Part shown: positions 1 to 64,000 of the stretch, one piece after another
How positions within the stretch are numbered: the first letter of the stretch is position 1
How the letters are laid out: each line of letters begins with the position of its first letter
Origin: Collinsella aerofaciens
GTDB taxonomy: Bacteria > Actinomycetota > Coriobacteriia > Coriobacteriales > Coriobacteriaceae
Length of the DNA stretch: 64,000 bases
Reading direction: 5' to 3'
Assembly: GCF_902364945.1 (NCBI RefSeq)
Contig: NZ_CABJFS010000003.1
Coordinates: forward strand, 62,001 to 126,000
Translations under genes and position numbers: made by a program
Notes under the pieces: model-generated
Told to the model about the DNA's origin: nothing
Databases searched by the model: none
Seen by the model: the letters and a program-made list of their open reading frames with translations, nothing else

Positions 1-399
1 CGCATGCAGCAGGGCATCTTGCTGCGACTTCGAAAAGCGATGGATCTCATCGATAAACAGAATGGTGCGGCGGTCGTAGGTGTTCAGACGGGTCTTAGCC
101 TCATCGATTACGCGGCGCAGGTCCTTCACAGTGCCCGTCACGGCGCTGACCTCGACAAACTCGCTCTTGGTATGGTTGGCGATAATGTGGGCCAGCGTCG
201 TCTTGCCCGTGCCAGCCGGGCCGTACAGAATCACGCTCGACAGCACGTCATGCTCAATCGCGGCGCGCAGCCACGAGCCCTTACCGACGGCCTTTTGCTG
301 GCCCACATACTCGTCGACCGAATTGGGGCGCATACGCACCGCAAGCGGCGCATTTTTAAAGGAGCGCTCGCGCGTCGAAGCAGAAAAAAGGTCGTCCAT
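1..399 (-). CDS. rarA: Replication-associated recombination ATPase RarA (partial, C-terminus outside window)
   Basis: The first about 133 codons of an AAA+ ATPase of the RarA/MgsA family, which acts at stalled replication forks. Visible are a Walker A motif (GPAGTGKTT), a following segment on DNA-end or fork recognition typical of the family, and a Walker B motif (ILFIDEIHRF). The N-terminal pattern of proline and VGQ residues before the ATPase core also fits. I chose the ATG at 399 (MDDLFS); in-frame ATGs at 405 and 414 are possible. The gene leaves the window at base 1, so the lid and C-terminal oligomerisation domains cannot be seen. Confidence 0.9.
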   Translation of the reverse strand, partial: MDDLFSASTRERSFKNAPLAVRMRPNSVDEYVGQQKAVGKGSWLRAAIEHDVLSSVILYGPAGTGKTTLAHIIANHTKSEFVEVSAVTGTVKDLRRVIDEAKTRLNTYDRRTILFIDEIHRFSKSQQDALLHA

Positions 400-459
400 A
401 GCCATCCCGTGCATTAATCAAAATCGTTGTTGACCAACAGTATACCGAAAGGATACGAA

Positions 460-1707
460 CTACCGTTCGTTAATATACGTGCGGTGCGGAAACTTTAGAC
501 CTGGGAACAATTTGCTCGTCAGCTCGCAGAAATAACCATCCGTCATGCTTGCGATGTAATCGACGACGGCCTGATCCTTGTCGTCCTGCCAGGCATAGGT
601 GCGATCGTAGTAGGAAAGCTGCTGCTCAATGCGCGAAACATGATGCTTAAAGATGTAAGAGGACTCGTCCCCTTTATTTAGATCCTGCAGGCAACGGTCG
701 TAGAGCTTTTCGAAGGCCTCACGCAACTCTGCCTCGGAATCGCCTTCGATACCGCCCTTGCTATAGATCTTCTCGTAGTTCTCGCGCTTCGCCCGGCGGA
801 TCTCCTCAAACAGGTCCTCGCTCATCTCGATACGCGGTTTGCCATAGCTATGCTCAACGATATCGATGGAAGCGTGCGTGAGAATCCAGCTGTTATAGGC
901 GCCGCCCCGACCATCGTCAAAAGCGTCGGGCGACAGCAGGCCCGCCGCAATGGCGTCCTGACGATCACGACCGACGTAGGCGAGGATATCCGAGATACGC
1001 ACCACACAGCCCTCGAGGGTCATGGGGCGCAGGTGCTCGATCGCGCCATAGCCCGCGGCAATGCTGTCCTCGACGGTACGGTCGAACTGGTCAAACGACG
1101 CTATGTCCGAGAGTTCAAAGACACGCTGCTCGTACTCGCCGTTATGGCACAGCACGCCGTCGAGCGTCTGGAGCGACACGTTGCGGCCGTACAGCGCGTC
1201 GAGCACGCGGACGGACTGCACGTTATGGAAAAAATAACGACCCGTACGCTCGTGATAGATATCGTTGAGGAAACGCTCGCCGGCATGGCCAAAGGGCGTG
1301 TGGCCCAAATCGTGGCCCAGGCCAATCGCCTCGATCAAATCGCAGTTGAGGCCCAGGGCACGGCCGATATCGCGGGCAATGCGCGAGACGAGCTGCACAT
1401 GAAGGCCGCGCCGCGACAGGTCGTCGTTACTGCGAAAGCTAAAGACCTGCGTTTTGCCGGCATAACGCGTGTACGCAGGAAGATGAAGAATCTTTTCGGT
1501 ATCGCGCATAAACGCCGGACGCATAAGCGTGCCTTTGTCGGCAGCGCGATCTATACGACGAATGACCTGGTCGTCGCAGCATCGATAAGGATTAACGACA
1601 CCCGAGGCGCGGTCGGCGGCGATACGCTCGACCAGCTCGGGCGACAACGCCGCGGGAATGCGGTCCATGCGCGCCTTAATGACGGCCGTTTCTTGATTAG
1701 TTGCCAT
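460..1707 (-). CDS. dgt: Deoxyguanosinetriphosphate triphosphohydrolase-like HD protein
   Basis: A 415-residue HD-superfamily phosphohydrolase, predicted to cleave dNTPs to nucleoside and triphosphate. The metal-binding residues are visible: His near 103, the HD pair near 132-133 within GHDLGHTPFGHAGE, and a later Asp in SDILAYVGRD. The ATG at 1707 is chosen because AAGGAG lies 6 bases upstream; an in-frame ATG further up at 1734 has no such site. In many actinobacteria dgt lies near dnaG, but here it sits beside a prepilin peptidase. The length fits the shorter Dgt-like (not E. coli hexamer) class. Confidence 0.9.
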   Translation of the reverse strand: MATNQETAVIKARMDRIPAALSPELVERIAADRASGVVNPYRCCDDQVIRRIDRAADKGTLMRPAFMRDTEKILHLPAYTRYAGKTQVFSFRSNDDLSRRGLHVQLVSRIARDIGRALGLNCDLIEAIGLGHDLGHTPFGHAGERFLNDIYHERTGRYFFHNVQSVRVLDALYGRNVSLQTLDGVLCHNGEYEQRVFELSDIASFDQFDRTVEDSIAAGYGAIEHLRPMTLEGCVVRISDILAYVGRDRQDAIAAGLLSPDAFDDGRGGAYNSWILTHASIDIVEHSYGKPRIEMSEDLFEEIRRAKRENYEKIYSKGGIEGDSEAELREAFEKLYDRCLQDLNKGDESSYIFKHHVSRIEQQLSYYDRTYAWQDDKDQAVVDYIASMTDGYFCELTSKLFPGLKFPHRTYINER

Positions 1708-1738
1708 GGCATGCTCCTTAAAAAGGATGCGCAATCGG

Positions 1739-2161
1739 TTACAATGTCCAGCCCACGACCTCGATTATGGCAAATATCGGCACCAAAAACGGGAGCAATG
1801 GCAGGGAGCGCGATTTTGTGAAGAGGCAGGAGAGGGCCAGGACCAGGAGCGCGACGGCAAATGCCACGATGCCGCCCAGAGGGTCGAGCGTGCAAAGCGC
1901 GAAAAGTGCCTTAGCATCTCCCATGCCGATGCCGGGGGCCTGGCGGAAACGCCGCCAAAGCGACTCGGTCAGCACAAGGGAAAGGTACACGATAACGGCA
2001 GGACCGGCGTGGTCAAGCGCCGTGTTCAAGCCCCTGTCCAGCCAAACGCCTGCAAACGCCGCCACGGCGCATGCGGCGGCAAGCGCGTTGGGAAACCGCC
2101 GTTCACGGACATCAATCACCGCACCGGCAAAGGCGCAGATCCAAAAGGGAATATAGACCAT
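1739..2161 (-). CDS. Minimal A24-family prepilin peptidase (catalytic domain only)
   Basis: A 140-residue integral membrane protein with about five hydrophobic segments. It keeps both aspartates of type IV prepilin/preflagellin peptidases: Asp17 in VIDVRERR and Asp82 in the GMGDAK version of GxGD. The N-terminal methyltransferase domain of full PilD is absent, as in many Gram-positive and archaeal forms. ATG 2161 is preceded by GGGAGGTG. No pilin or secretion ATPase gene lies in the window, so its substrate is not evident here. It ends 31 bases before dgt on the same strand and may share its transcript. Confidence 0.85.
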   Translation of the reverse strand: MVYIPFWICAFAGAVIDVRERRFPNALAAACAVAAFAGVWLDRGLNTALDHAGPAVIVYLSLVLTESLWRRFRQAPGIGMGDAKALFALCTLDPLGGIVAFAVALLVLALSCLFTKSRSLPLLPFLVPIFAIIEVVGWTL

Positions 2162-2193
2162 TGAACACCTCCCGTGGCAGTCACTCAAAAGCA

Positions 2194-2234
2194 AAAACCA
2201 CCACAAAGGTGCCTGTCCCCTTCGTGGTGGTTTT
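2194..2234. repeat. Palindromic intergenic repeat, CCACCA-arm family, copy 1
   Basis: Arms AAAACCACCA and TGGTGGTTTT enclose a loop containing GGTGCCTGTCCCC. A second copy lies at 9831-9871 with its core in the opposite orientation. It sits between the glycosyltransferase and the prepilin peptidase and could also act as a terminator of the glycosyltransferase gene. Confidence 0.75.
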
Positions 2235-2242
2235 GGTGGTGG

Positions 2243-3538
2243 TTATTTAGCGCCCTGCATGACCTCGTCGAGGGTAACGCTGACGGCATGCTGCGTCGGG
2301 ACCCAGTCGACCTTCAGGAACAACGCAGCCACCGTGATGGGGATATAGCTGAACATAAAGATCGGAAAGGTAAACAGGTTGGTCACCAGGCGCCACTTTT
2401 GCGCACAATGAATGTGCTTGTACTCGAAGATGGTCGTAAGTAGAGCCAGGATAAAGAAGGTCTGATACATCATCGCGAAGGTCATAATGAGCGAGGCGGC
2501 ACAAGCCTGCATCTCGACCTCGGTGGCCAAGAAGCCATGCGAAAGACCGCCAACGATGAGGAAGGTCGCGTTGGCGAGCATGGAGATCAGGGACAGCAGC
2601 ATACCCGGAGCAATCGTCATAAACATGTCGTAGGCGGCAAAGCGGTGATAACGGAAGGTCGACTTGACCAGATGCTTACCGTAGGTAAAGAACACCTGGT
2701 AGAAGCCCTTGGTCCAGCGCATACGCTGCTTCCAGGACGCTTTAAACGTCACGGGTTGCTCGTCAAAAAACTCCGCCGGCGCATAGCCAATACGAATGCC
2801 GTGAATGGCGCAGAACGTGGTGAACTGAATATCCTCGGTCAGCGTATGGAACTGCCAGCCGTGCATGCCCTCAATAACGCTCGCCGAGATAAGGTAGCCC
2901 GAACCCGATACGGCGCAGGACGTCTTGCAGATGTTGCGCGCGTTGTTGAGAAAACGCGCCTCGCGCAGATACCAAGTGGCATTCGCTGCCGAGATCCACG
3001 AGCTTCCGAAGTTCTTGGAGTTACGATAGCTCGTGACCACATGGAAGCCCTGGTCAAAGGCATCATTCATCTTGGACACGTAATCGCGGGCGATAACATT
3101 ATCGGCATCGAAGATAAAGTAACCTTCAAAGGTGTCGGGATACTCGTTAAGGATACGGTCGAAACCAAAGTCCATGACCCAGCTCTTGCCTTTACGGGCC
3201 AGGTCGTTTCGCTCGTACACGACAGCGCCCGCCTCGCGCGCGAGCTGCGCAGTGTTATCGGTGCAGGCATCGGCGACGACAAAGACCTCGATGAGCTCGG
3301 ACGGATAATCCTGGTCCTTGATGGAGCGAACGAGGTTGGCGATAACGGCCTCCTCGTTGTGTGCTGCAATAAAGAAGGCATACCGGTGGAGTTTTTTGGC
3401 CTTGGGAGGCGCGACCTCGCCGCGGAGAGCACCGATGACAAAGAAGACCACCTGGTACAAGAAGCAGACCGTGAGCAGCGTGACGACAATCTGGTTGAAG
3501 ATCACGATGGGTGTGTTGGTTTGTAAAAAGGCGAGCAT
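2243..3538 (-). CDS. Membrane-bound family 2 glycosyltransferase
   Basis: A 431-residue processive-type glycosyltransferase. An N-terminal membrane segment (about residues 10-38) precedes a GT-A domain with the substrate motif AAHNEE, a DAD metal-binding motif (Asp144, Asp146), TED at 234-236 and QRMRW at 271-275, the Q-x-x-R-W signature of cellulose, hyaluronan and poly-N-acetylglucosamine synthases. Two to four further membrane helices follow (about 305-415). It probably adds sugars from a nucleotide sugar to an exported polysaccharide or lipid; the sugar cannot be read from sequence. No other polysaccharide genes are adjacent. Confidence 0.85.
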   Translation of the reverse strand: MLAFLQTNTPIVIFNQIVVTLLTVCFLYQVVFFVIGALRGEVAPPKAKKLHRYAFFIAAHNEEAVIANLVRSIKDQDYPSELIEVFVVADACTDNTAQLAREAGAVVYERNDLARKGKSWVMDFGFDRILNEYPDTFEGYFIFDADNVIARDYVSKMNDAFDQGFHVVTSYRNSKNFGSSWISAANATWYLREARFLNNARNICKTSCAVSGSGYLISASVIEGMHGWQFHTLTEDIQFTTFCAIHGIRIGYAPAEFFDEQPVTFKASWKQRMRWTKGFYQVFFTYGKHLVKSTFRYHRFAAYDMFMTIAPGMLLSLISMLANATFLIVGGLSHGFLATEVEMQACAASLIMTFAMMYQTFFILALLTTIFEYKHIHCAQKWRLVTNLFTFPIFMFSYIPITVAALFLKVDWVPTQHAVSVTLDEVMQGAK

Positions 3539-3620
3539 GCAGGCTCCCAGGAACGTGTTACGTAAACAACCGTATATCTTACCGCAGGCTTACCGAGTTC
3601 AAGAAACCACCTAATACTGG

Positions 3621-4634
3621 CTAGGCTTCGAGCAGACCGAGCTGAGGAACGATCTCGTCGCCGGCAGCGGTGCGACCAAGCGAGCGCGGGGCCAGGTCGT
3701 CAAGAACCGCAGCGAGATCCCACGGCAGCTCGTCGCGGCACTCAATGCGTTCCCCCGTCACGGGATGGTCGAATGCGACGCGCCAGGAATGAAGGAATTG
3801 CCTGGTCAGACCCTGATCGGCGCGTGCATCGCACTTGCCGTAGAGTGGATCGCCCACGCAGGCGTGGTTGATATGGCGCATATGCACGCGTATCTGATGC
3901 GTGCGGCCCGTAAACAGGTGGCACTCGACGAGCGTATAGCCGTCGTCAAAACGCGTGGAATCGAAGCGCTCGAGGACCTTAAAGGTCGTAATGGCCTGGC
4001 GCGCGAAAGGATCGTCCGAAACCGCCATCTTGACACGGTCACGCGTAGAACGGGCAATGCCGGTGTTAATGGTGCCCTCATCCATAGCGATATGTCCGTG
4101 AACGAGCGTAATATAGCGGCGGTCGAGCGTGCGCGTACGGATAAGATTTTGGAGCGCGCGCTGGGTGTCGTCGTCCTTCGCCGCAAGCATAAGGCCCGAA
4201 GTGTCGCGATCCAGACGATGCACGATGCCGGGGCGATCCTCGCCCTGCACGGTGCCCAGATGGTCGATACCGCAGTGATAGACCAGGGCATTCGCGAGCG
4301 TACCGCTCTCATGACCATGCGCAGGATGGCACACCAGGCCGCGCTGCTTGGAGAGCACGATAAGGTAGTCGTCCTCGTAGCGAATATCGAGGGGAATGGC
4401 CTCGGGAATCACGTCGGTCGGGTCGTGCGGCTCAGGCAAATCGACCGAAATACGGTCGCCGGCTCGCACGGCGTACTTTTTGGACAGGCAGGTCTCGCCG
4501 TTGACGGCAACGGCGCCGCCCTCAATCAGATGCGCGCAGGCAGAGCGTGTGGGACAGCCGTCGTTGGCACCCAGATAGGCGTCGAGACGCTGACCGGTAG
4601 CATCGTCGGCAACAAGAATATGGATATCGGCCAT
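3621..4634 (-). CDS. RluD-family 23S rRNA pseudouridine synthase
   Basis: A 337-residue RluA/RluD-family enzyme that isomerises uridine in large-subunit rRNA. It has an N-terminal S4 RNA-binding domain (about 12-70) and the catalytic motif HRLDRDTSGL at 139-148, with the nucleophilic Asp at 142. A later RTHQIRVH block is the usual C-terminal signature. Its start codon overlaps the lspA stop by one base (TAATG), so the two are probably translationally coupled, an order common in Gram-positive bacteria. Confidence 0.92.
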   Translation of the reverse strand: MADIHILVADDATGQRLDAYLGANDGCPTRSACAHLIEGGAVAVNGETCLSKKYAVRAGDRISVDLPEPHDPTDVIPEAIPLDIRYEDDYLIVLSKQRGLVCHPAHGHESGTLANALVYHCGIDHLGTVQGEDRPGIVHRLDRDTSGLMLAAKDDDTQRALQNLIRTRTLDRRYITLVHGHIAMDEGTINTGIARSTRDRVKMAVSDDPFARQAITTFKVLERFDSTRFDDGYTLVECHLFTGRTHQIRVHMRHINHACVGDPLYGKCDARADQGLTRQFLHSWRVAFDHPVTGERIECRDELPWDLAAVLDDLAPRSLGRTAAGDEIVPQLGLLEA

Positions 4635-26366: not shown

Positions 26367-26490
26367 AGCGCTTCCTCTCATAGTGCATGAATACCAAAAG
26401 AATGGTACCGCCCGGGCGGTACCAAGACACGGTTCTGATTCTACCCCACGAAGCAGGCCGCGAGGCACATAACAGCGCTCTAACTCGCTC

Positions 26491-53867: not shown

Positions 53868-54320
53868 CTATTCGCTCTGAAAAGGCACATCGCAATCTGC
53901 TGACAGCTCTGCAGGGAGAATGGCAGGCAATGTAAGCGCTCCCATGGGTGAAAGTCCAGTAACAACCATCAAATAGCTCTTTGCATGGGCATATGCCATC
54001 GAAATAGCATTTGAAAGAAGGTAGTGACGCGCCTCGTCATCGGGAGAGTTCATTGGCATTTGCGCTGAAACCGAGATGGATACTGTAACGCCAGCGTGCA
54101 TCTTCTCCTGTGCACCTTCGTCTCTGTCAAGGAGGCTGCCAATTACGCACATCTTTAGACTTGCGCGTGCATCATTACCTTTTTTCGAAAGATGGACATC
54201 TTGGTAGCTAACGTCAACTTTTAATTCCATGTTATCCGAGGGCGAATCCTCGATATGGAAATCGGAGTCAACGACGAACAAATGAACGACTTGAATCGGA
54301 GCAATAAAATCCCCACTCAT
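53868..54320 (-). CDS. SecB-like chaperone of a TAC module
   Basis: A 150-residue acidic protein with the SecB-like pattern: an N-terminal beta-rich part (MELKVDVSYQDVHL), then a helix and the late ISMAYAHAKSYLMVVTGLSP with TLPAILPAEL. This resembles the SecB YAR...I/V...FPPLxLPPI end. ATG 54320 overlaps the antitoxin stop by four bases (ATGA). SecB-like proteins in toxin-antitoxin-chaperone systems bind the antitoxin and stabilise it. General SecB is normally absent from such Gram-positive genomes, which favours a TAC role. Assignment is by pattern and gene order. Confidence 0.65.
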   Translation of the reverse strand: MSGDFIAPIQVVHLFVVDSDFHIEDSPSDNMELKVDVSYQDVHLSKKGNDARASLKMCVIGSLLDRDEGAQEKMHAGVTVSISVSAQMPMNSPDDEARHYLLSNAISMAYAHAKSYLMVVTGLSPMGALTLPAILPAELSADCDVPFQSE

Positions 54321-54706
54321 GCTGCCAAACCTCCGGAAATCATCTCGAGATTCACATGCGAGGACGGACGCTCGTTCCTAAAAGACCATTGCTCTCGCAC
54401 GAAATTGTTGGATGAAAGAAACGGTAGCTCTTTAGAATAGCTAACGGTAACCTTAGGAACGATATTGATACCCAAAGCAAGCTCGAACCTAGCGATCGTC
54501 TTCAGCGTCATATTGGGCTGAGAATTCAACAGCTTCGAAAGCGACTGAAGGCTCACGCCCATACGCTTTGCCAAATCGCTTTTGCTTAAACCCAGACGCT
54601 TCATCTCGCGATGAACAATAAACTCGATATCTAGCGCGTGTTCATAAGCGCGTGTTTCGCTGGTTTCTGTATCGGCGTAAAAATCAGATAAATCTACTTT
54701 ATTCAT
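54317..54706 (-). CDS. HTH antitoxin with C-terminal extension (HigA-like, TAC)
   Basis: A 129-residue protein with a Cro/C1-type helix-turn-helix (GLSKSDLAKRMGVSLQSLSK, about 37-56) after an acidic N-terminus. About 45 residues follow (about 85-129). In TAC systems such an extension is the chaperone-addiction region, and here it holds an aromatic cluster (FVREQWSFR). ATG 54706 follows CGGAGAA. It is the middle gene between the toxin-like gene and the SecB-like gene. Confidence 0.75.
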   Translation of the reverse strand: MNKVDLSDFYADTETSETRAYEHALDIEFIVHREMKRLGLSKSDLAKRMGVSLQSLSKLLNSQPNMTLKTIARFELALGINIVPKVTVSYSKELPFLSSNNFVREQWSFRNERPSSHVNLEMISGGLAA

Positions 54707-54745
54707 TGTGTTCTCCGTTTCGAAAGCCAGGCATATATGCCAGCT

Positions 54746-55153
54746 TCAAGGCTCCAGAAGCTGACACGCAATTACGGCTAACCGCTTGGCCGGCTCAATT
54801 TCTTTACTGATATTTCCCGACCCTTGATGCCCCTTAAACCAAAATAGAAGAACGATTTTGTCTACGCCCTGACATACGGCATAAATCATCTCGCGATTTG
54901 CCCCGTCAAACCCCTTAAGTTCATAGAGGCCGATCTTAGAATCAATACATCGCATCTTTGAGGTACCACTCGCAACTTTTAACCCATAATCATAGATTTT
55001 AGAAATCTGGTCGATCATTTTACGGGCGGCAAATTTCCGTTTGGGATCTGACATCATCTTCTGAAATTGAGAGTTATCGGGAGAAGTCGTCAGCTCCCAA
55101 AACGGACGGCCCTTGGGATCCCCATATTCGACAAGATCATATCCTTCAACCAA
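54746..55153 (-). CDS. RelE/HigB-like toxin of a TAC module
   Basis: A 135-residue protein. Its second half resembles RelE/HigB/Gp49 toxins: KIGLYELKGFDGANREMIY, then KIVLLFWFKGH, then EIEPAKRLAVIA, matching the L-W-E-L-R / I-V-L-L-h-G-F / EI..A..R pattern of those mRNA interferases. The start is probably TTG 55153, with GGGAGG five bases ahead, which keeps it downstream of the palindrome; the frame is open further upstream across the operator. It is followed after 39 bases by the antitoxin gene. Confidence 0.65.
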   Translation of the reverse strand: MVEGYDLVEYGDPKGRPFWELTTSPDNSQFQKMMSDPKRKFAARKMIDQISKIYDYGLKVASGTSKMRCIDSKIGLYELKGFDGANREMIYAVCQGVDKIVLLFWFKGHQGSGNISKEIEPAKRLAVIACQLLEP

Positions 55154-55171
55154 AGGCCACCTCCCATTTCT

Positions 55172-55222
55172 AGATACACTTAACTTATAAGTTAAGTGTA
55201 TCTCTTTAAATACAAATAACAA
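55172..55222 (-). promoter_or_regulatory. TAC promoter with a 32-bp perfect palindrome operator
   Basis: Perfect palindrome at 55172-55203 with half-site AGATACACTTAACTTA. A promoter with TTGTTA (55217-55222), spacer 16 and TACACT (55195-55200) places the -10 box inside it. Binding of the HTH antitoxin would block transcription, the usual autoregulation of such modules. Confidence 0.75.
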
Positions 55223-56657: not shown

Positions 56658-57557
56658 TTAGATGTTCATCTCTTTAAACACGCTGTATAAAACATCTTGT
56701 GCAATTAGCCCACGATAAGATACAACAAGCTCACCTAAATCATCGAGCATCGCTTTCGTCTCGTCGTCAGGCAGAACACGGCAGAGCAGGGAGTACATAT
56801 CGGAAAACCTTGCCCCTCTTACGACCGCACAATAGAGCCGCTCGTCATGCGCGCAAATATTCCTAAAGCCAGATAGAACTTGAATGACGCGAAGCAGCAT
56901 TACCGGCTCGAGCCTGTGATTTCTATTTGCGGTTTGGCTGACCAACTTGCAGGCAGCATTTTGCACGCCGCGTTTTTGAAGCTGATAGAAGTGTGAGATA
57001 TTGCCAAATGTCAGATCATTCTGAAGAACCCACAAGGGCACTGCACCGCATTTATTCAAATAATGCCTCACAAATGGGCGCATACGCTGCTCGTTTGATA
57101 CCTTATCATTCAGCAGTTTTAGCAGTTCAGCAAGATTCTTCGAGTGCTGGTAACCCTTATTGCCTCGAAACGCCTTAGGCACGAGCAAATCACTAGACGC
57201 AACATAATTAGAACGATCCAGGTAGGCATCTGCAGCACGGTATTCATTGCAAAACGAATATACAACGGCGTTCTTAAGTACGGCCTCTGCTCTTGCAAGA
57301 TAGGAAAATGTAAGTTGTCTAAGTTCTCTATCGAACAAAAAGAGATCGTAGATGTTCTTGAATGAAGTGCCCTCTCTAAAAACATCATCTAACGAGGACT
57401 GCGCAGCATTTTTATCAAGAAAAGGGCCTTTGTAGCCGTTTATAACTGCGTAATAGCTTTCACGTCTCAGGCAATCTACCGTGGTTGCATCAGTCGCCAC
57501 CCCACGGCTCTCTAGGAGTTCAATTAGTGGAGCGAAAGTCTTAAACTCTTTTGCCAA
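56658..57557 (-). CDS. Abi_2 (AbiD/AbiF-type) abortive infection protein with HEPN motif
   Basis: A 299-residue protein of the Abi_2 family, whose members stop phage infection or act as toxins of type IV-like systems. It shows the family order: LESRGVA, YYAVINGYKGPFLD, LFLFDRELRQLTFSYLARAE, VPLWVLQNDLTFGNISHFY, and the HEPN nuclease motif FRNICAHDERLY (R-x4-H) near 235. The start is TTG 57557, after AGGAG. It is a single-gene unit in the defence island, with a fragment of a second copy downstream. Confidence 0.82.
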   Translation of the reverse strand: MAKEFKTFAPLIELLESRGVATDATTVDCLRRESYYAVINGYKGPFLDKNAAQSSLDDVFREGTSFKNIYDLFLFDRELRQLTFSYLARAEAVLKNAVVYSFCNEYRAADAYLDRSNYVASSDLLVPKAFRGNKGYQHSKNLAELLKLLNDKVSNEQRMRPFVRHYLNKCGAVPLWVLQNDLTFGNISHFYQLQKRGVQNAACKLVSQTANRNHRLEPVMLLRVIQVLSGFRNICAHDERLYCAVVRGARFSDMYSLLCRVLPDDETKAMLDDLGELVVSYRGLIAQDVLYSVFKEMNI

Positions 57558-57869
57558 AACAAGCTCCTAAAATCAAAGGGCCGTTGCCGGAATACTCCGG
57601 ACAACGACCCTTCTTTGTCATCGCCTCACTTAGAGTCCACGACGACTGCATCACTACTGGTATAGTACCCTAAATTAATCGCTAATGCGGTGCATACAGG
57701 AATTACATTCTATGTTCGGTTAAATCGTTCATGAATCAACCATTGACCGGGGCCAGAACGCCGAGCTAGCGGCAACTGCTAAGATTCATACAGAGCCGCC
57801 TCCTCGTTAACATGTGACAGAATTTTTCGAGCGTAAGCGACTATCTAGTCAAACATAAGACTCCGCAAC
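57558..57869. other. Spacer with a hairpin, no gene
   Basis: Contains a hairpin of CGTTGCCGG...CCGGACAACG type at about 57581-57608 that may end the DUF4238 transcript. Nothing else is recognised. Confidence 0.4.
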
Positions 57870-58769
57870 CTAAAACCCGGGCTGATATTGCCCAATTAGT
57901 CGTTCTAAGTAAAGGCGATCTTTTGCAATCAGAAACTCCCACAACCCGTCACCGTTCATCAGAATACGATTAAATGAATCGACTTCAATGGAAGACATAC
58001 GAGTAGTAGAGACACAACGTTCCTCTTCCAGTCTTTGTCTAAATACGACTGCGTACCGAGGGCTCAACGGGAAGTAAACGCCGCAAGGATTTTCATCACT
58101 CTCGTCCTTCCACTCAGCATGCACAGGAAGTGACGAGGTTATAAACTCAGAGCCTTCTGGCGCTATATAAAACAGGCAATCCATGTCGAGCAATAAGACA
58201 AGTAAATCATACATTGGCGCGCCTTTATCGAACCTGAACAGCGCTGTATCCAGACAAGCAAGCTCGACAATGGCTTCAAATTCATTCCTGTAGCCAGCCA
58301 AATCCATTTGAGAAATGTCTTTGTCAGAGAAAAAGGCGCTCGACAACAATTCGACGGAGTGAGCGCCGACGTCACCCCTCACCTTGCTCAACCATTTAGG
58401 GTGCCTCGCAATAAGCGATGCAAGCAAAAATGCCAGTCGAGAAATCAGCGCAACGCACTCTTCACCTTTTGGCAGTTTTCCGGAATCAAGGCAACTGAGC
58501 AACAATCGGTAGGTAGGTGCAAGACTGTTCTCGATTTTCCCAAGAGTATCTTCGATGGCGCCCTTCTCGATGAATCCATCATTGCCCTGGGACACACGTC
58601 GTTTGACCTCATAGAGGTATTTTTCTGCACAAACATTTTCGGGCTTTGATCGGAAAGCGGGCTTCAATCCGCCAGCATCGCGCCTCACAACACTAAGGTA
58701 GCCCAAGTCATCGGTAAACGATTTGAGATAAAAACGCGGCACGTAGTGCTGATTCTTAACCCCAGGCAC
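57870..58769 (-). CDS. DUF4238 family protein
   Basis: A 299-residue protein that opens KNQHYVPRFYLKSFTD, the signature of DUF4238, a family without a known biochemical role but frequent in defence islands. A conserved LPVHAEW and PLSPRYAVVF block appears in the second half, as usual. Start GTG 58769 with GGAGGTG ahead. It lies 29 bases after the ABC ATPase remnant on the same strand, so it may belong to the same operon as the ABC-3C-like genes. Confidence 0.8.
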   Translation of the reverse strand: MPGVKNQHYVPRFYLKSFTDDLGYLSVVRRDAGGLKPAFRSKPENVCAEKYLYEVKRRVSQGNDGFIEKGAIEDTLGKIENSLAPTYRLLLSCLDSGKLPKGEECVALISRLAFLLASLIARHPKWLSKVRGDVGAHSVELLSSAFFSDKDISQMDLAGYRNEFEAIVELACLDTALFRFDKGAPMYDLLVLLLDMDCLFYIAPEGSEFITSSLPVHAEWKDESDENPCGVYFPLSPRYAVVFRQRLEEERCVSTTRMSSIEVDSFNRILMNGDGLWEFLIAKDRLYLERLIGQYQPGF

Positions 58770-58798
58770 ATTTACACCTCCACCAAAATCAGATTGCT

Positions 58799-60518
58799 TT
58801 AGCCTGCTACATAAAAGGGGTTGAAACCAGTACGGAAGTCTGAAACAAGAGAAATATACTTATCAGGAACGATTCCCAAGGCATCAGGATCTTCCGTTTC
58901 AAACAGAAATGATTGGACATCAACTTTATCCACAAGTGAATAAAACTTCGAAATGATTGTTCCTATCGCCCCACGGCTTTCCTTATCAAATGGCGACGAA
59001 ACATGGTCAAATACAAGCAAGGGGCAAGTGGAATGTTACGCTTTGGAAGCAAGTAATGCATGAATGCAAAGTAACCGCAGATCTGCATCAACGAGTGACG
59101 AGCACGACTTCCAGTAAACAAATCAACGCTATCGTCCCTTTCGGAAAAGGTGGGCTGAAGCCCCACTCCTTCCTTTTGAAACTTGATATGAAAATCAAGT
59201 TGCTTAAAATCAGATTCAACAAAGGAGGACACCTGAGAAGCCGAGTGATACAAATCGGTTACGGTATCAGAAATGGAATTAATAGAAGCATTGTCATCAG
59301 AATGCTTAAGTTTAAGCAGCTCCCGTTTTAGACGAGAAATATCCGTTTTTACATCTTCAAGATCATCAGGCTTGCAGAGCGCCGAATACCGGGATAAATA
59401 CTCATTTGCCACCAAAACAGCCTTGCTTTTTTCATTAAAGTCTAATGGATTAAACACCACGTTTGCAGCTGTTAACTTGGCTTCAAGTTGAGCCAGCCTG
59501 CTCTCTTTGCGAGCAAGTAATTCCTGTTGAAATCAAGGTCTTTTCGGGGTATCGCCGTTTCAATTTCACCAAGTAAATTGCAAGTTTGACCCAAAAGATC
59601 TGCTCTAGAACCATCGTCAGCAATCAGCGAGTTCAACCTGTCCAGAAGGCGATACCGTTTCTCATCCTGAGCCTTTGTCCCCTTAAGCTCGCGAATCATT
59701 TGTTTCTGAGCCTTGATATCGTTTCTTAGCTGATCTGCCTCAACAACATCGTTTGCCATCAAGCTAGAAGAAGAATTAAGTTCAATGGAAACAGCAGCCG
59801 TCTCAATTAATTCAGATACGACAGCAACATTCCTGCCATCGAAACGTTCGACGATTCCGAGCTTGGCCAGCTCTTGATTAACTGCTTCTAAATAGTGATT
59901 GAAAAAGTCACGTTGAGATTCTAGCTCGCGAGCTCGCTTGCTAAGTTCCGCTATCCTGCGCTGAAGGAACACGATTCGATCTGGGTTGGTGCTAAACAGA
60001 TAATCAAATAAGGGTCTCTGCTTAACCCGATATTTAGTTTCGAGAAGCTTGCTGAAGAAGCCATTAATTCGGCCGACCGTCACTTCATTAAGAAAACAAA
60101 ATAAGGTAAAAGTCCTATATGTCAGCTCTTGGCCGACATATTCAGAGAGGTTGGTAGGGTCATCCGCCGATTCCAGAAACAACGTATTGAGGTAATTTCT
60201 ATATTCCGCGAGATCAGATACCTTGTAAGGTATTCCATCTATTACTAGTCCAAACTCATCGCCAGCCAAATCGCGATACAAGGAAAAACCATGGCCATTT
60301 AAAGAGATCTGCATCTTGGCCGCCTGTAACGACCCCTTGAACCAAGGCGACTCGGATAGCTTCTTCTTCTCAGCCCCGAGCATATAGTCGAGAAAATTGT
60401 AAAATTCGGTTTTTCCAGAGCTATTAGGACCCTGAATGTAATTAACGCCGCTCGAAAAGGAGTATCTAAACGACTCCCCAGAACAAGAGATTAGTTCCAA
60501 GCACTCAATGCTAAACAT
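58799..60518 (-). pseudogene. ABC-type/SMC-like ATPase of an ABC-3C-like system, two apparent frameshifts
   Basis: The first 348 codons hold Walker A GPNSSGKTEF (about 31-40) and a coiled coil. Near 59517 one base appears missing at TTT, and the frame continues as QQELLARKESRLAQLEAKLT and NPLDFNEKSKAV with a GSRARHSLMQICGY signature. Near 59015 a base appears missing at CCCC, and the frame continues as LLVFDHVSSPFD (Walker B) to the stop at 58799. Corrected, it would be one ATPase of about 570 residues. Both lesions are at homopolymers, so sequencing error is possible. The start overlaps the middle gene by eight bases. Confidence 0.75.
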
Positions 60519-60957
60519 TACGAATCATCTCCGACAGAACATATTTATCGTCCAGGGAAGCAACTTCACTTATCAATTTTGGAATAAACGAATTGTTAAC
60601 TCTGCAGCCCTGTGCTCGTCCTTCGTTACTGAGGCAGACGAAAGCATCTTCAATAGCAATAAAACCGCCTTCAGCGGCTATCTCAATGGCTTCAACTGAG
60701 TATTGAAGTTCATATAAGAACGACTCATAACCACCAGAAACCGCGCAGGTAGCTCTCTCGACTAGATTCTTTAAATGCCTGCCGTTCAACAGCCCGCTCC
60801 CATGAGATTCGATTGATTTCGACAAGAACATTAAAACCAACAATTTAGTAACGCTCATGCTGTCAGCGCAAGAAAGAATGGCAAGCAAATAGTCAAGATA
60901 AATACTGACCACTATTGCTCTTTGGCGAAGAAAAAGATCCTTTGAATAGCTAGTCAT
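60511..60957 (-). CDS. Middle component-like protein of an ABC-3C-like system
   Basis: A 148-residue mostly helical protein starting MTSYSKDLFLRQRAIVVSIY. No catalytic motif is visible. Size, helical content and position between the nuclease-like gene and the ABC ATPase fit the middle component of ABC-three-component systems. Its ATG lies within the last codons of the upstream gene and its end overlaps the ATPase by eight bases, so the three are tightly coupled. Recognition is by context more than by motif. Confidence 0.55.
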   Translation of the reverse strand: MTSYSKDLFLRQRAIVVSIYLDYLLAILSCADSMSVTKLLVLMFLSKSIESHGSGLLNGRHLKNLVERATCAVSGGYESFLYELQYSVEAIEIAAEGGFIAIEDAFVCLSNEGRAQGCRVNNSFIPKLISEVASLDDKYVLSEMIRNV

Positions 60958-62062
60958 TGGTTTCGTCTTTCCATGAAATTTTTTTCTCAGTAGGTGTTTC
61001 TTCCCTCGTAAGCCAAATGCAAGATCCCCATTTTTCATGATCGTTATCCGCATAGCTATTTTGGCAGCGCTTAGTTTCTATTAGCCGTCGCATTGGATCG
61101 TCTTTGCCATCAAGCTTTAGCAGGTTACACGAATCGCAAAAGTTATTAAATGTAGCGCTTTCCAAACTAGCAACAGTGTCAGCCTGACACTTTGCAAGTC
61201 TCTCATAATTTATAGAGCGATAGTATTCACAGAAATACAGATGTTGCGTAATAAATGAAGCATCTTTCCGACAAGAGTGCAGTTGTCGATATTCACGCGA
61301 TGACTCCCTGGCCTCAAGCAAATCGTCATCAGCGGCAGCCATCCATGCTGAGTAATCTGGCTCAAATCGTTTTGAAGAAATTTTTGCGCATATCTACTCG
61401 CAAAGCTGCATAAATGACTCATAGTCGATTTTATAAGGAATTGCTTTTAGCATCGCTTCGGACACATTAAACTGAATCCTTCTCCTCAACTCAGCAACTC
61501 GCTCATCAAATAAATCAACGTTCGAAGTAAGGTGAAAAATACTTGAAAGATTATCCCTAATCTCGGAATTAATTGCATTCTCGTTAATGGCGTAAGCACT
61601 CGCCTTCTCTTTGACACAAGAAAAGAGTCTGACAATGTCGTCATCATCTAAAGAGGCCTTTAGCTTCGCGGCATTTGACCTACTGGACTTTTTAGCCCTT
61701 TCATCAAGACCCTCAATAAATTGATTGGCGGTAATGGCATCAAAATGTACGGAAAGGCTTTTATCATCCGAATAAAGAAGCCAAAAGGAAGAAATCGACT
61801 CGTGCTTGCTAACGGCAAGAATCCAGTTCGTATAAATTTGGACAACATCTCGTTTAGCAACATTGGTATTTTTTACCTGAATAAGCCGAGATTCACAAAG
61901 TCCAATCCGCCCGCTTAATTCATCAAGGCTGGTAGAAGCTGAGATGTCATCAAGATATTCATAGCTGGCAACTGTATTAGGGTTTAACTCTGTCACCTGC
62001 TTCAGAAACACTTTCATCTGGAAAGCAAAACCTGCTTGCGAGAGTATTCCTGATAGATCCAT
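60950..62062 (-). CDS. Restriction-nuclease-like effector of an ABC-3C-like system, with an in-frame TAG
   Basis: The N-terminal part resembles DUF4297/Cap4-type restriction-fold nucleases: ILSQAGFAFQMKVFL, then YLDDIS and LIQVKNTNVAKRDV with a D...QxK pattern near residues 45-70. The frame stops at TAG 61394-61396, then continues in the same frame without interruption to 60950, with a C-terminal part holding several Cys (CEYYRS, NNFCDSCNLL). Either this is one gene of about 370 codons with a nonsense mutation, or a 222-residue protein followed by a second short gene. ATG 62062 is used. Confidence 0.6.
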
Positions 62063-62378
62063 ATCACACCGCCATAAAGTCACTAATTAAAACAATTCTA
62101 CTCCACCGTAGTCATTTAACTCGCATGACGGAGGGGCTAAGGCAATTTAAGTCCATCAAACTATGTCACATGATTCACTATTTAATTGCAGCCAAAATGA
62201 AATCGGTTGATATGTACAGTTCGCAGTACGTACCACGCCGATTAACCCCTTTCGGAACATGCAGCAATCGAAGGTGGCTGGGTCTTTCCCAGCTTCAAGT
62301 CACCGCTCATCTTCAAGACACCGTGCCCTTAGGTATAATTGATAGAACAGACGTACGAATCAAATGGATTGGAACGCC
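62063..62378. other. Divergent intergenic region between defence units
   Basis: Separates the minus-strand ABC-3C-like operon from the plus-strand two-gene unit, so it should hold promoters for both. GTCACCGCTCATCT-like and GGCTGGGTCTTTCCCAGC (a short hairpin at about 62277-62294) are the only structures noticed. Confidence 0.4.
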
Positions 62379-63236
62379 ATGTCAAATGAAGCCGAAATCA
62401 AAGACCTCTTTACGGTTTACTACATGAACCATTCCAAGGTTTATGAGATGCGCATGCTGCTAAACAACAAGATTTGGAAAGAGGCCACAAGCGAAGAAGA
62501 TAAGGCCGCTTCAGGCAATGCCGAGCTCCATGTAAAAGGAGAAGGAAAGGTCCCGCTCTTTTCGAAGTTTTCTGGGGACGTGGACGCAAACCTGGGACAC
62601 GAGAAACGAACAAAGCTGATAGATACGCTCGAGTACATCAACACCAAGAGCCGAATGCTTGCTGAAATCAAGGGATACTGCCTTAGATTTGACGAAAATG
62701 AGCGTAAAGAGGGCGACCTCGTCTACATCGATAATGTAAGCCTCTCACTGCTCAACGAGGACGAAGTGCGCACCCTCATTACGATCATGTCGGGAACGTT
62801 CGATGGGATTACAATCCCGGAGGCCGGCGGCCTCGATGTGGGACACCTATTCCAGTCCTTCATTAAGTCGGGCACGTCATTCAAACTCATCGGGAAAATC
62901 GAGGGCGCTAATAGCGTTATTAGCAGCAACATTATCGTGAAAATCCCCATCGATGGAACGAATCTTTTTGAAAGCGGTTACTCAGTCGATGACCTCCTTA
63001 TCGGCAAGGTCGGCATCATCGGAATTTGTAAAGGGAAAGTTCGTCCAGCGGACCTTCGTAGCTCGTACGAATTTTTTCAAACAAAGGGCAAGACAGCTGA
63101 ACCAGTGAACGACGGCTTCATAGACGGATCAGCCAAAGTACGTGCAGGCGATTCGATCAAAGAAGAAGAGGCGACCGAAGCTATCTATATCGATGTCATC
63201 GCCATCATTCAGGCGGTCAATAAAAAGAGCGAATAA
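62379..63236 (+). CDS. Unrecognised protein of a two-gene unit with an AAA+ ATPase (DUF6414-like?)
   Basis: A 285-residue soluble protein starting MSNEAEIKDLFTVYYMNHSK. No catalytic motif is seen. The segment YYMNHSKVYEMRMLLN and the split domain around DNVSLSLLNEDEV vaguely recall DUF6414 proteins, but this is weak. ATG 62379 is preferred to ATG 62364. It ends three bases before the ATPase start, so the two are cotranscribed and probably act together, perhaps as client or sensor and motor. Confidence 0.55.
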   Translation: MSNEAEIKDLFTVYYMNHSKVYEMRMLLNNKIWKEATSEEDKAASGNAELHVKGEGKVPLFSKFSGDVDANLGHEKRTKLIDTLEYINTKSRMLAEIKGYCLRFDENERKEGDLVYIDNVSLSLLNEDEVRTLITIMSGTFDGITIPEAGGLDVGHLFQSFIKSGTSFKLIGKIEGANSVISSNIIVKIPIDGTNLFESGYSVDDLLIGKVGIIGICKGKVRPADLRSSYEFFQTKGKTAEPVNDGFIDGSAKVRAGDSIKEEEATEAIYIDVIAIIQAVNKKSE

Positions 63237-63239
63237 GAC

Positions 63240-64000
63240 ATGCTAAACTTAACTACATACAGGAGAGACCAGTTCGCCCGTCTAAAGGACAGGCTTAAAA
63301 ACGAAGGATACGACTATACCTCAGCGTTATCACTTACCAGCACTGCAGAAATTGCACAGCAAGCTGGAGAGCGTAGTATGGCAGTCGATATCTCGTCGCT
63401 TATATCCCTGCCCGATTCTTCCGGCGGCAAAGCAGGCATAGTCGCAACATTTGAAGCCCTTCTCTATCAAATGCCCAAAAGCACTGTGTTTGTCGCCGAC
63501 GAAACGGCGGCAAACAAATACGCCTACGAGATGCGCACTATATTTGACGCCGTACAGCCTTGTGATATCGAGAATAATAGTGAGGACCAAGCCGTGCTCT
63601 GTGAAGAGAAGCCGAAGCGTCTGATAGACCTTGACGACTCAGAGGCAAAAGAATTGCTCGACCAGTTCGCATGCGACCTCATCGGACAGGAACTATTCAA
63701 AGGTGAATTCCGCAAACAGGTCGAGATATTCAGGCTGTTTAACAGTATCGGCGAGCAGCCGATTCTCTCCCTATTCCTGATCGGACCCTCCGGTGTGGGC
63801 AAGACCGAGACCGCAAGGATTCTCAGTAAACTTCTCGCCCCGGGAGAACCACTACCTAAGGTCAACTTTGGCAACTACAGCAGCAAGGACTCGCTCAATT
63901 CGCTCATCGGCAGCCCGCGTGGCTATATGGGCAGCGAAGAAGGTGAGCTCACAATGAAGATAGAGCGAAGCAACTCAGGCGTTATCCTCATCGACGAGTT
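63240..64000 (+). CDS. ClpA/B-type AAA+ ATPase (partial, C-terminus outside window)
   Basis: The first 253 codons of an AAA+ protein. After an N-terminal part of about 140 residues come a helix with CDLIGQELFKGEFR, Walker A IGPSGVGKTETA (about residues 182-192), a ClpA/B-like NFGNYSSKDSLNSLIGSPRG with GYMG pore-adjacent pattern, and Walker B GVILIDEF at the window edge. This is the AAA_2 (Clp C-terminal) class. The Clp N-domain and first ATPase domain are absent. A defence role is inferred only from the neighbourhood. Confidence 0.75.
   Translation, partial: MLNLTTYRRDQFARLKDRLKNEGYDYTSALSLTSTAEIAQQAGERSMAVDISSLISLPDSSGGKAGIVATFEALLYQMPKSTVFVADETAANKYAYEMRTIFDAVQPCDIENNSEDQAVLCEEKPKRLIDLDDSEAKELLDQFACDLIGQELFKGEFRKQVEIFRLFNSIGEQPILSLFLIGPSGVGKTETARILSKLLAPGEPLPKVNFGNYSSKDSLNSLIGSPRGYMGSEEGELTMKIERSNSGVILIDE

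Follow-up and report, generated by a model that had tools for sequence, protein, structure and literature searches.

Organization of the locus

Three open reading frames on the minus strand of the window (the whole 64,000-nucleotide stretch of Collinsella aerofaciens DNA that was analyzed) lay together in an operon-like array of toxin, antitoxin, and SecB-like chaperone genes. These encode a HigB/RelE-type toxin of 135 aa with a TTG start (positions 54746 to 55153), a HigA-type Xre/HTH antitoxin of 129 aa (54317 to 54706), and a SecB-like chaperone of 150 aa (53868 to 54320). This order, tight spacing, and an ATGA overlap had been noted, and the frames were found so arranged: 39 bases separate the toxin and antitoxin genes, and the antitoxin stop and chaperone start codons overlap in an ATGA (54317 to 54320). 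The antitoxin consists of a body and, from about residue 101, a tail (54320 to 54406, minus strand), a candidate chaperone-addiction region that contains VREQWSFR and has the C terminus GGLAA. The GC content was, as claimed, lower than that upstream (0.46 versus 0.57 to 0.65), but this was not a module-specific trait, as the whole region from ~53.7 to 64 kb was likewise low.

As listed, the toxin frame began at TTG 55270. Toxins of relatives had the N terminus MVxxYxLVEY, a ribosome site (GGGAGGTGG) was located directly 5' of TTG 55153, and in one related locus, L037, the equivalent position likewise had a TTG with a G-rich site; the toxin start was therefore reset to TTG 55153.

Upstream of the toxin gene, a perfect palindrome of 32 bp was present at positions 55172 to 55203 (no strand), the longest perfect palindrome in the window, and is a likely operator. 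Its predicted coverage of a −10 box was not borne out, as a promoter scan gave no consensus site. The 16-bp palindrome core was found upstream of the toxin in four of six relatives examined (two exact and two with one mismatch), and the remaining two had no match to the core even at ≤4 mismatches. The arms flanking the core were altered on both sides in step in two loci (L034 and L035), and the outer arms were asymmetric in two others (L037 and L002). The second-longest perfect palindrome of the window, of 22 bp, was located at positions 26403 to 26424.

Toxin and antitoxin

The predicted structure of the toxin had a RelE fold, in agreement with the proposed RelE/HigB-like identity of the first gene, with Mycobacterium tuberculosis HigB1 and pneumococcal HigB tied as top matches (VIA-align). 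The best Foldseek match was HigBA of Streptococcus pneumoniae (6af3 and 6af4), which shares the toxin fold at ~20% identity. To our knowledge, the pneumococcal system is a two-gene pair without a chaperone. Neither the toxin nor the chaperone had a family match in the Pfam, NCBIfam, PADLOC, or PHROGs databases, apart from one stray Pfam match (E = 0.21). The suggested link to the Gp49 (PF05973)/RelE profiles thus failed for this toxin itself but held for the toxins of two related modules, L073 (E = 4e-7) and L071 (E = 5e-8), with a Gp49 match just below the cutoff in L067 (E = 1e-4).

Residues E78, K80, and R87 of the toxin were conserved and correspond by motif to E66, R68, and R77 of HigB1, which are catalytic there together with K95 (PMC9098466). 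Lys95 had no direct counterpart, and a nearly invariant His109 was found near its place, so the active site may differ from that of HigB1. The fold of the toxin and its conserved E78, K80, and R87 point to probable activity as a ribosome-dependent mRNA endonuclease.

The antitoxin matched HTH_3 (E = 2e-8), TIGR02607 HigA (E = 8e-7, below the cutoff of that model), and PADLOC PDC-M64B (E = 3e-11). The HTH match stopped at residue 82 of 129, leaving a C-terminal extension with a tail that varied among relatives and had a higher dN/dS (~0.24) than the antitoxin body (~0.07). A Trp residue and a terminal -AA were conserved in the close full-length antitoxin relatives (P0163 to P0179), and the terminal GGLAA is, by sequence, a ClpX-type signal.

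C termini were compared across 23 antitoxins (19 from Coriobacteriia) whose genes precede that of a SecB-like protein. The terminus was AA in 18/23 and [AVLI]A in 21/23, with LAS and VAL as the two exceptions. Control genes, called mechanically by length from parts of four genomes, showed these ends rarely, both among the only 18 with an ATGA overlap (AA in 1 and [AVLI]A in 2) and among all 662 (14 and 28, respectively). The difference in [AVLI]A from the 18 overlap controls was significant for all 23 antitoxins (Fisher's exact test, P = 2e-7), with two close relatives dropped (P = 5e-7), and for the 17 modules with ATGA overlaps (P = 5e-6), although the modules behind these tests are not fully independent. 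Adding five antitoxins from outside the set, of which three lacked the [AVLI]A end (the MqsA type of L007, KEG; L064 and L066, both AAAA; L067, AAS; and L068, QAV), gave 23/28 overall. An -AA end forced by the overlap and ribosome site was also considered and was ruled out by the rarity of the [AVLI]A end in the small control set (2/18 versus 21/23 antitoxins). Trp was enriched in the last 45 residues (22/1,035 versus 18/2,400 elsewhere, P = 0.001) and was present in 15 of 23 tails, the other 8 having none.

In line with the Trp enrichment, the chaperone-bound peptide of M. tuberculosis is reported to be anchored by a Trp (PMC6377645). In the same species, HigA1 carries a Val-Ala ClpX degron (PMC8165232); CmdA is described as ending in LAA, as do other toxin-antitoxin-chaperone (TAC) antitoxins (PMC11618068). 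A degron-type signal as such was therefore already known. The occurrence of the -AA end in both HigA- and MqsA-type antitoxins suggests a shared release route.

Chaperone and comparison with known TAC systems

The 150-residue protein had a SecB fold in its predicted structure, which bears out the proposed identity, and it had no match to the Pfam SecB model (PF02556). That model was matched by only 1 of 25 chaperone relatives, at an E value of 0.094. Searches of the PDB with chaperone-family profiles returned SecB at E values of 0.56 and 1.4, the latter match ranking second to an unrelated protein (E = 0.22). The chaperone did not match the PADLOC chaperone profile for PD-T4-9, which is CmdTAC (PMC9519451), and the chaperone of a related locus, L044, matched this profile (PD-T4-9_C) with an E value of 2e-4.

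The module resembles HigB1-HigA1-SecB(TA) of M. tuberculosis (Rv1955 to Rv1957) in gene order, in both predicted folds, and in the antitoxin tail, which in either system contains Trp and basic residues and ends in a hydrophobic residue followed by Ala. It differs in that identity in structure alignments was only 11 to 19%, and in being located in Coriobacteriia and below Pfam detection. The HigB-HigA-SecB-like composition is shared with Escherichia coli HigBAC (PMC11980606). E. coli CmdTAC likewise includes a SecB-like chaperone and an antitoxin ending in LAA (PMC11618068), but CmdT is an ADP-ribosyltransferase, unlike the RelE-fold toxin here.

Distribution and distance correlations

The chaperone profile matched 21 of 396 Coriobacteriia genomes, and toxin, antitoxin, and chaperone genes occurred together in 13 of the 21 neighborhoods (12 of the HigBA type and 1 of the MqsRA type, confirmed by Pfam). 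The remaining neighborhoods comprised one with a shortened toxin frame (L051), one with only antitoxin and chaperone (L041), three decayed modules (L013/L036, L014/L004, and L017/L050), and three with a SecB-like gene by metK and no toxin-antitoxin pair (one confirmed by Pfam and two by eye). The four named relatives were from Collinsella; the nearest genome searched, G001, had no match to the chaperone or flanking DNA. The metK-adjacent SecB-like genes belonged to one genus (L078, positions 1824 to 2351; L023; L024; and L025) and lay just after metK, and a further SecB-like copy (L027) was not beside metK on its strand.

PF02556 matched 6 of the 396 class genomes, none of them among the 21 with the chaperone profile, and its cutoff was passed in only 3. 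These matches fell in seven places, six of which were behind toxin-antitoxin pairs: MqsRA (L064, L065/L074, L066, and L069/L077, with L064 and L066 assigned by eye), Gp49/HTH (L067), and HicAB-like (L068). The seventh, L063, had no such pair on its strand. SecB-like genes in Coriobacteriia are thus found behind at least three toxin-antitoxin families. In L068 (positions 1483 to 2687, minus strand), a HicA-like and HicB pair was followed by the SecB-like gene, the HicA match being below the Pfam cutoff. In L007 (positions 3 to 1287, plus strand), an MqsR-MqsA-SecB-like operon adjoined a HigBA-type TAC on the opposite strand, placing two TACs side by side.

A broader profile applied phylum-wide matched 11 of 396 genomes, including 4 from outside the class. 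The wider searches added seven modules, six by this profile and one by the Pfam SecB model. PF02556 was the search model in a previous survey of TAC distribution (PMC4257090); as it misses the branch found here, TAC modules may be undercounted in Coriobacteriia. No report of a TAC in Coriobacteriia or of a SecB-HigBA chaperone in Collinsella was found in the open-license literature. As SecB-like genes outside proteobacteria, some linked to toxin-antitoxin pairs, are already noted in that review (PMC4257090), the novelty lies in extent: the module is a further TAC of known type, in a lineage missed by the standard SecB profile.

Pairwise protein distances were compared (mirror-tree analysis) across 17 modules, 13 of them from Coriobacteriia, with mean identities of 0.22 for the toxin, 0.32 for the antitoxin body, and 0.22 for the chaperone. 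Distances were significantly correlated between toxin and antitoxin (r = 0.76, P = 0.0003), antitoxin and chaperone (r = 0.54, P = 0.002), and toxin and chaperone (r = 0.58, P = 0.0007). When only the 13 modules from Coriobacteriia were considered, the toxin-antitoxin correlation was still 0.76, and the chaperone correlations were weak (with antitoxin, r = 0.31, P = 0.07; with toxin, r = 0.27, P = 0.08).

The weak tracking of antitoxin by chaperone within the class would fit an ordinary two-gene HigBA pair whose antitoxin is independent of the chaperone, the downstream SecB-like protein having a general folding or export role, as would the SecB-like genes that occur in the class without toxin-antitoxin genes (3/21 by metK, and L063). 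Against such independence, the gene order recurs among divergent proteins, 17/23 modules share the ATGA overlap, and MqsRA pairs bear the same kind of chaperone. With the derivatives described below taken into account, this explanation is very unlikely.

The three genes very probably constitute a TAC operon, as originally proposed, with an antitoxin whose tail is probably addicted to and shielded by the chaperone; the predicted SecB and HigB/RelE-like folds and the three-part order in 13 of the 21 matched class genomes support this interpretation. Given the observed architecture, predicted folds, and terminal signal, a mechanism comprising addiction, proteolysis, nuclease activity, and a trigger may be proposed. 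The antitoxin body would bind the toxin and the upstream palindrome, and the chaperone-addicted tail, terminating in the putative ClpX-type degron (-GGLAA), would be shielded by the SecB-like protein. Titration of the chaperone, possibly onto a structural protein of a phage as in the reported cases of CmdTAC and HigBAC, would expose the antitoxin to degradation by ClpXP, and the toxin would halt translation.

Deletion and fusion derivatives

The 99 antitoxin clusters were sorted by pattern. A terminal AA was present in 32, and 36 showed a fusion, just past residue ~105, to the final residues of the chaperone; 8 are fused elsewhere, 9 stop ahead of the tail, and 14 show other patterns. All fusions (44/99) had lost both the tail and the bulk of the chaperone. 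Fusions of the common type, in which the antitoxin body reads in frame into the chaperone end, were present in L034 (positions 1030 to 1816) and L035 (4376 to 5162), and examination of the DNA of these two genomes revealed a large internal deletion in the toxin gene. The operator core was kept in both with one mismatch, and the dN/dS of the antitoxin body was 0.23 and 0.08, respectively, relative to the window and 0.11 when they were compared with each other. A distinct second loss, in which the antitoxin body and chaperone end were joined at another point (the type with 8 clusters), was observed in L036 and L004 (also L013 and L014).

The joint loss of chaperone, tail, and degron in the fusions is as addiction predicts and runs counter to an antitoxin that is independent of its chaperone. 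Such independence is more readily reconciled with L050 (positions 2811 to 3809), in which a full-length toxin frame is retained beside a tail-less antitoxin and a chaperone without its first half. This frame also ruled out the possibility that every chaperone loss is paired with a dead toxin. As deletion products that arose naturally, the fused forms provide an immediate means of testing for chaperone addiction. It is conceivable, though unlikely, that an extensive radiation of phage-sensing TACs, hidden from family databases, exists in Coriobacteriia, with the widespread Collinsella fusions retained as stable, chaperone-free antitoxins of an anti-addiction or regulatory kind.

The many fused or truncated relatives also raise the question of whether the module is itself a decaying, functionless remnant. 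The three frames of the window module are uninterrupted, the operator core has been retained, and the toxin and antitoxin showed purifying selection relative to L037 (dN/dS of ~0.06 and ~0.11, respectively, given for these two genes only, as dS of the chaperone was saturated). Decay is accordingly very unlikely indeed.

Genomic context and possible trigger

A low-GC defense island occupies positions 56658 to 63998 of the window and includes AbiD/Abi_2, DUF4238, an LmuB-like ATPase, and a PDC-M37A/B pair. An anti-phage role for the TAC module is plausible, with chances close to even, in view of these defense-gene neighbors, the PD-T4-9 match of L044, and the reported triggering of CmdTAC by a phage protein (PMC11618068) and of HigBAC by a lambda tail protein (PMC11980606).

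A true TAC could instead serve in stress response or island maintenance, a reading that concerns the trigger only and whose probability overlaps that of the TAC interpretation. The M. tuberculosis TAC has been described as stress responsive (PMC5105189 and PMC6377645). The operon DNA had no match in phage records, the chaperone had none in plasmid or phage records, and a scan of viral contigs for the chaperone gave four pattern matches, none of which was a relative. The adjoining AbiD, LmuB-like, and PDC-M37A/B genes and the two TAC systems reported to be triggered by phage proteins weigh against a stress or maintenance function, which is judged somewhat less than evenly likely. The LmuB-like ATPase of the island is 348 aa long, compared with ~600 positions in the profiles that it matched, and is perhaps broken.
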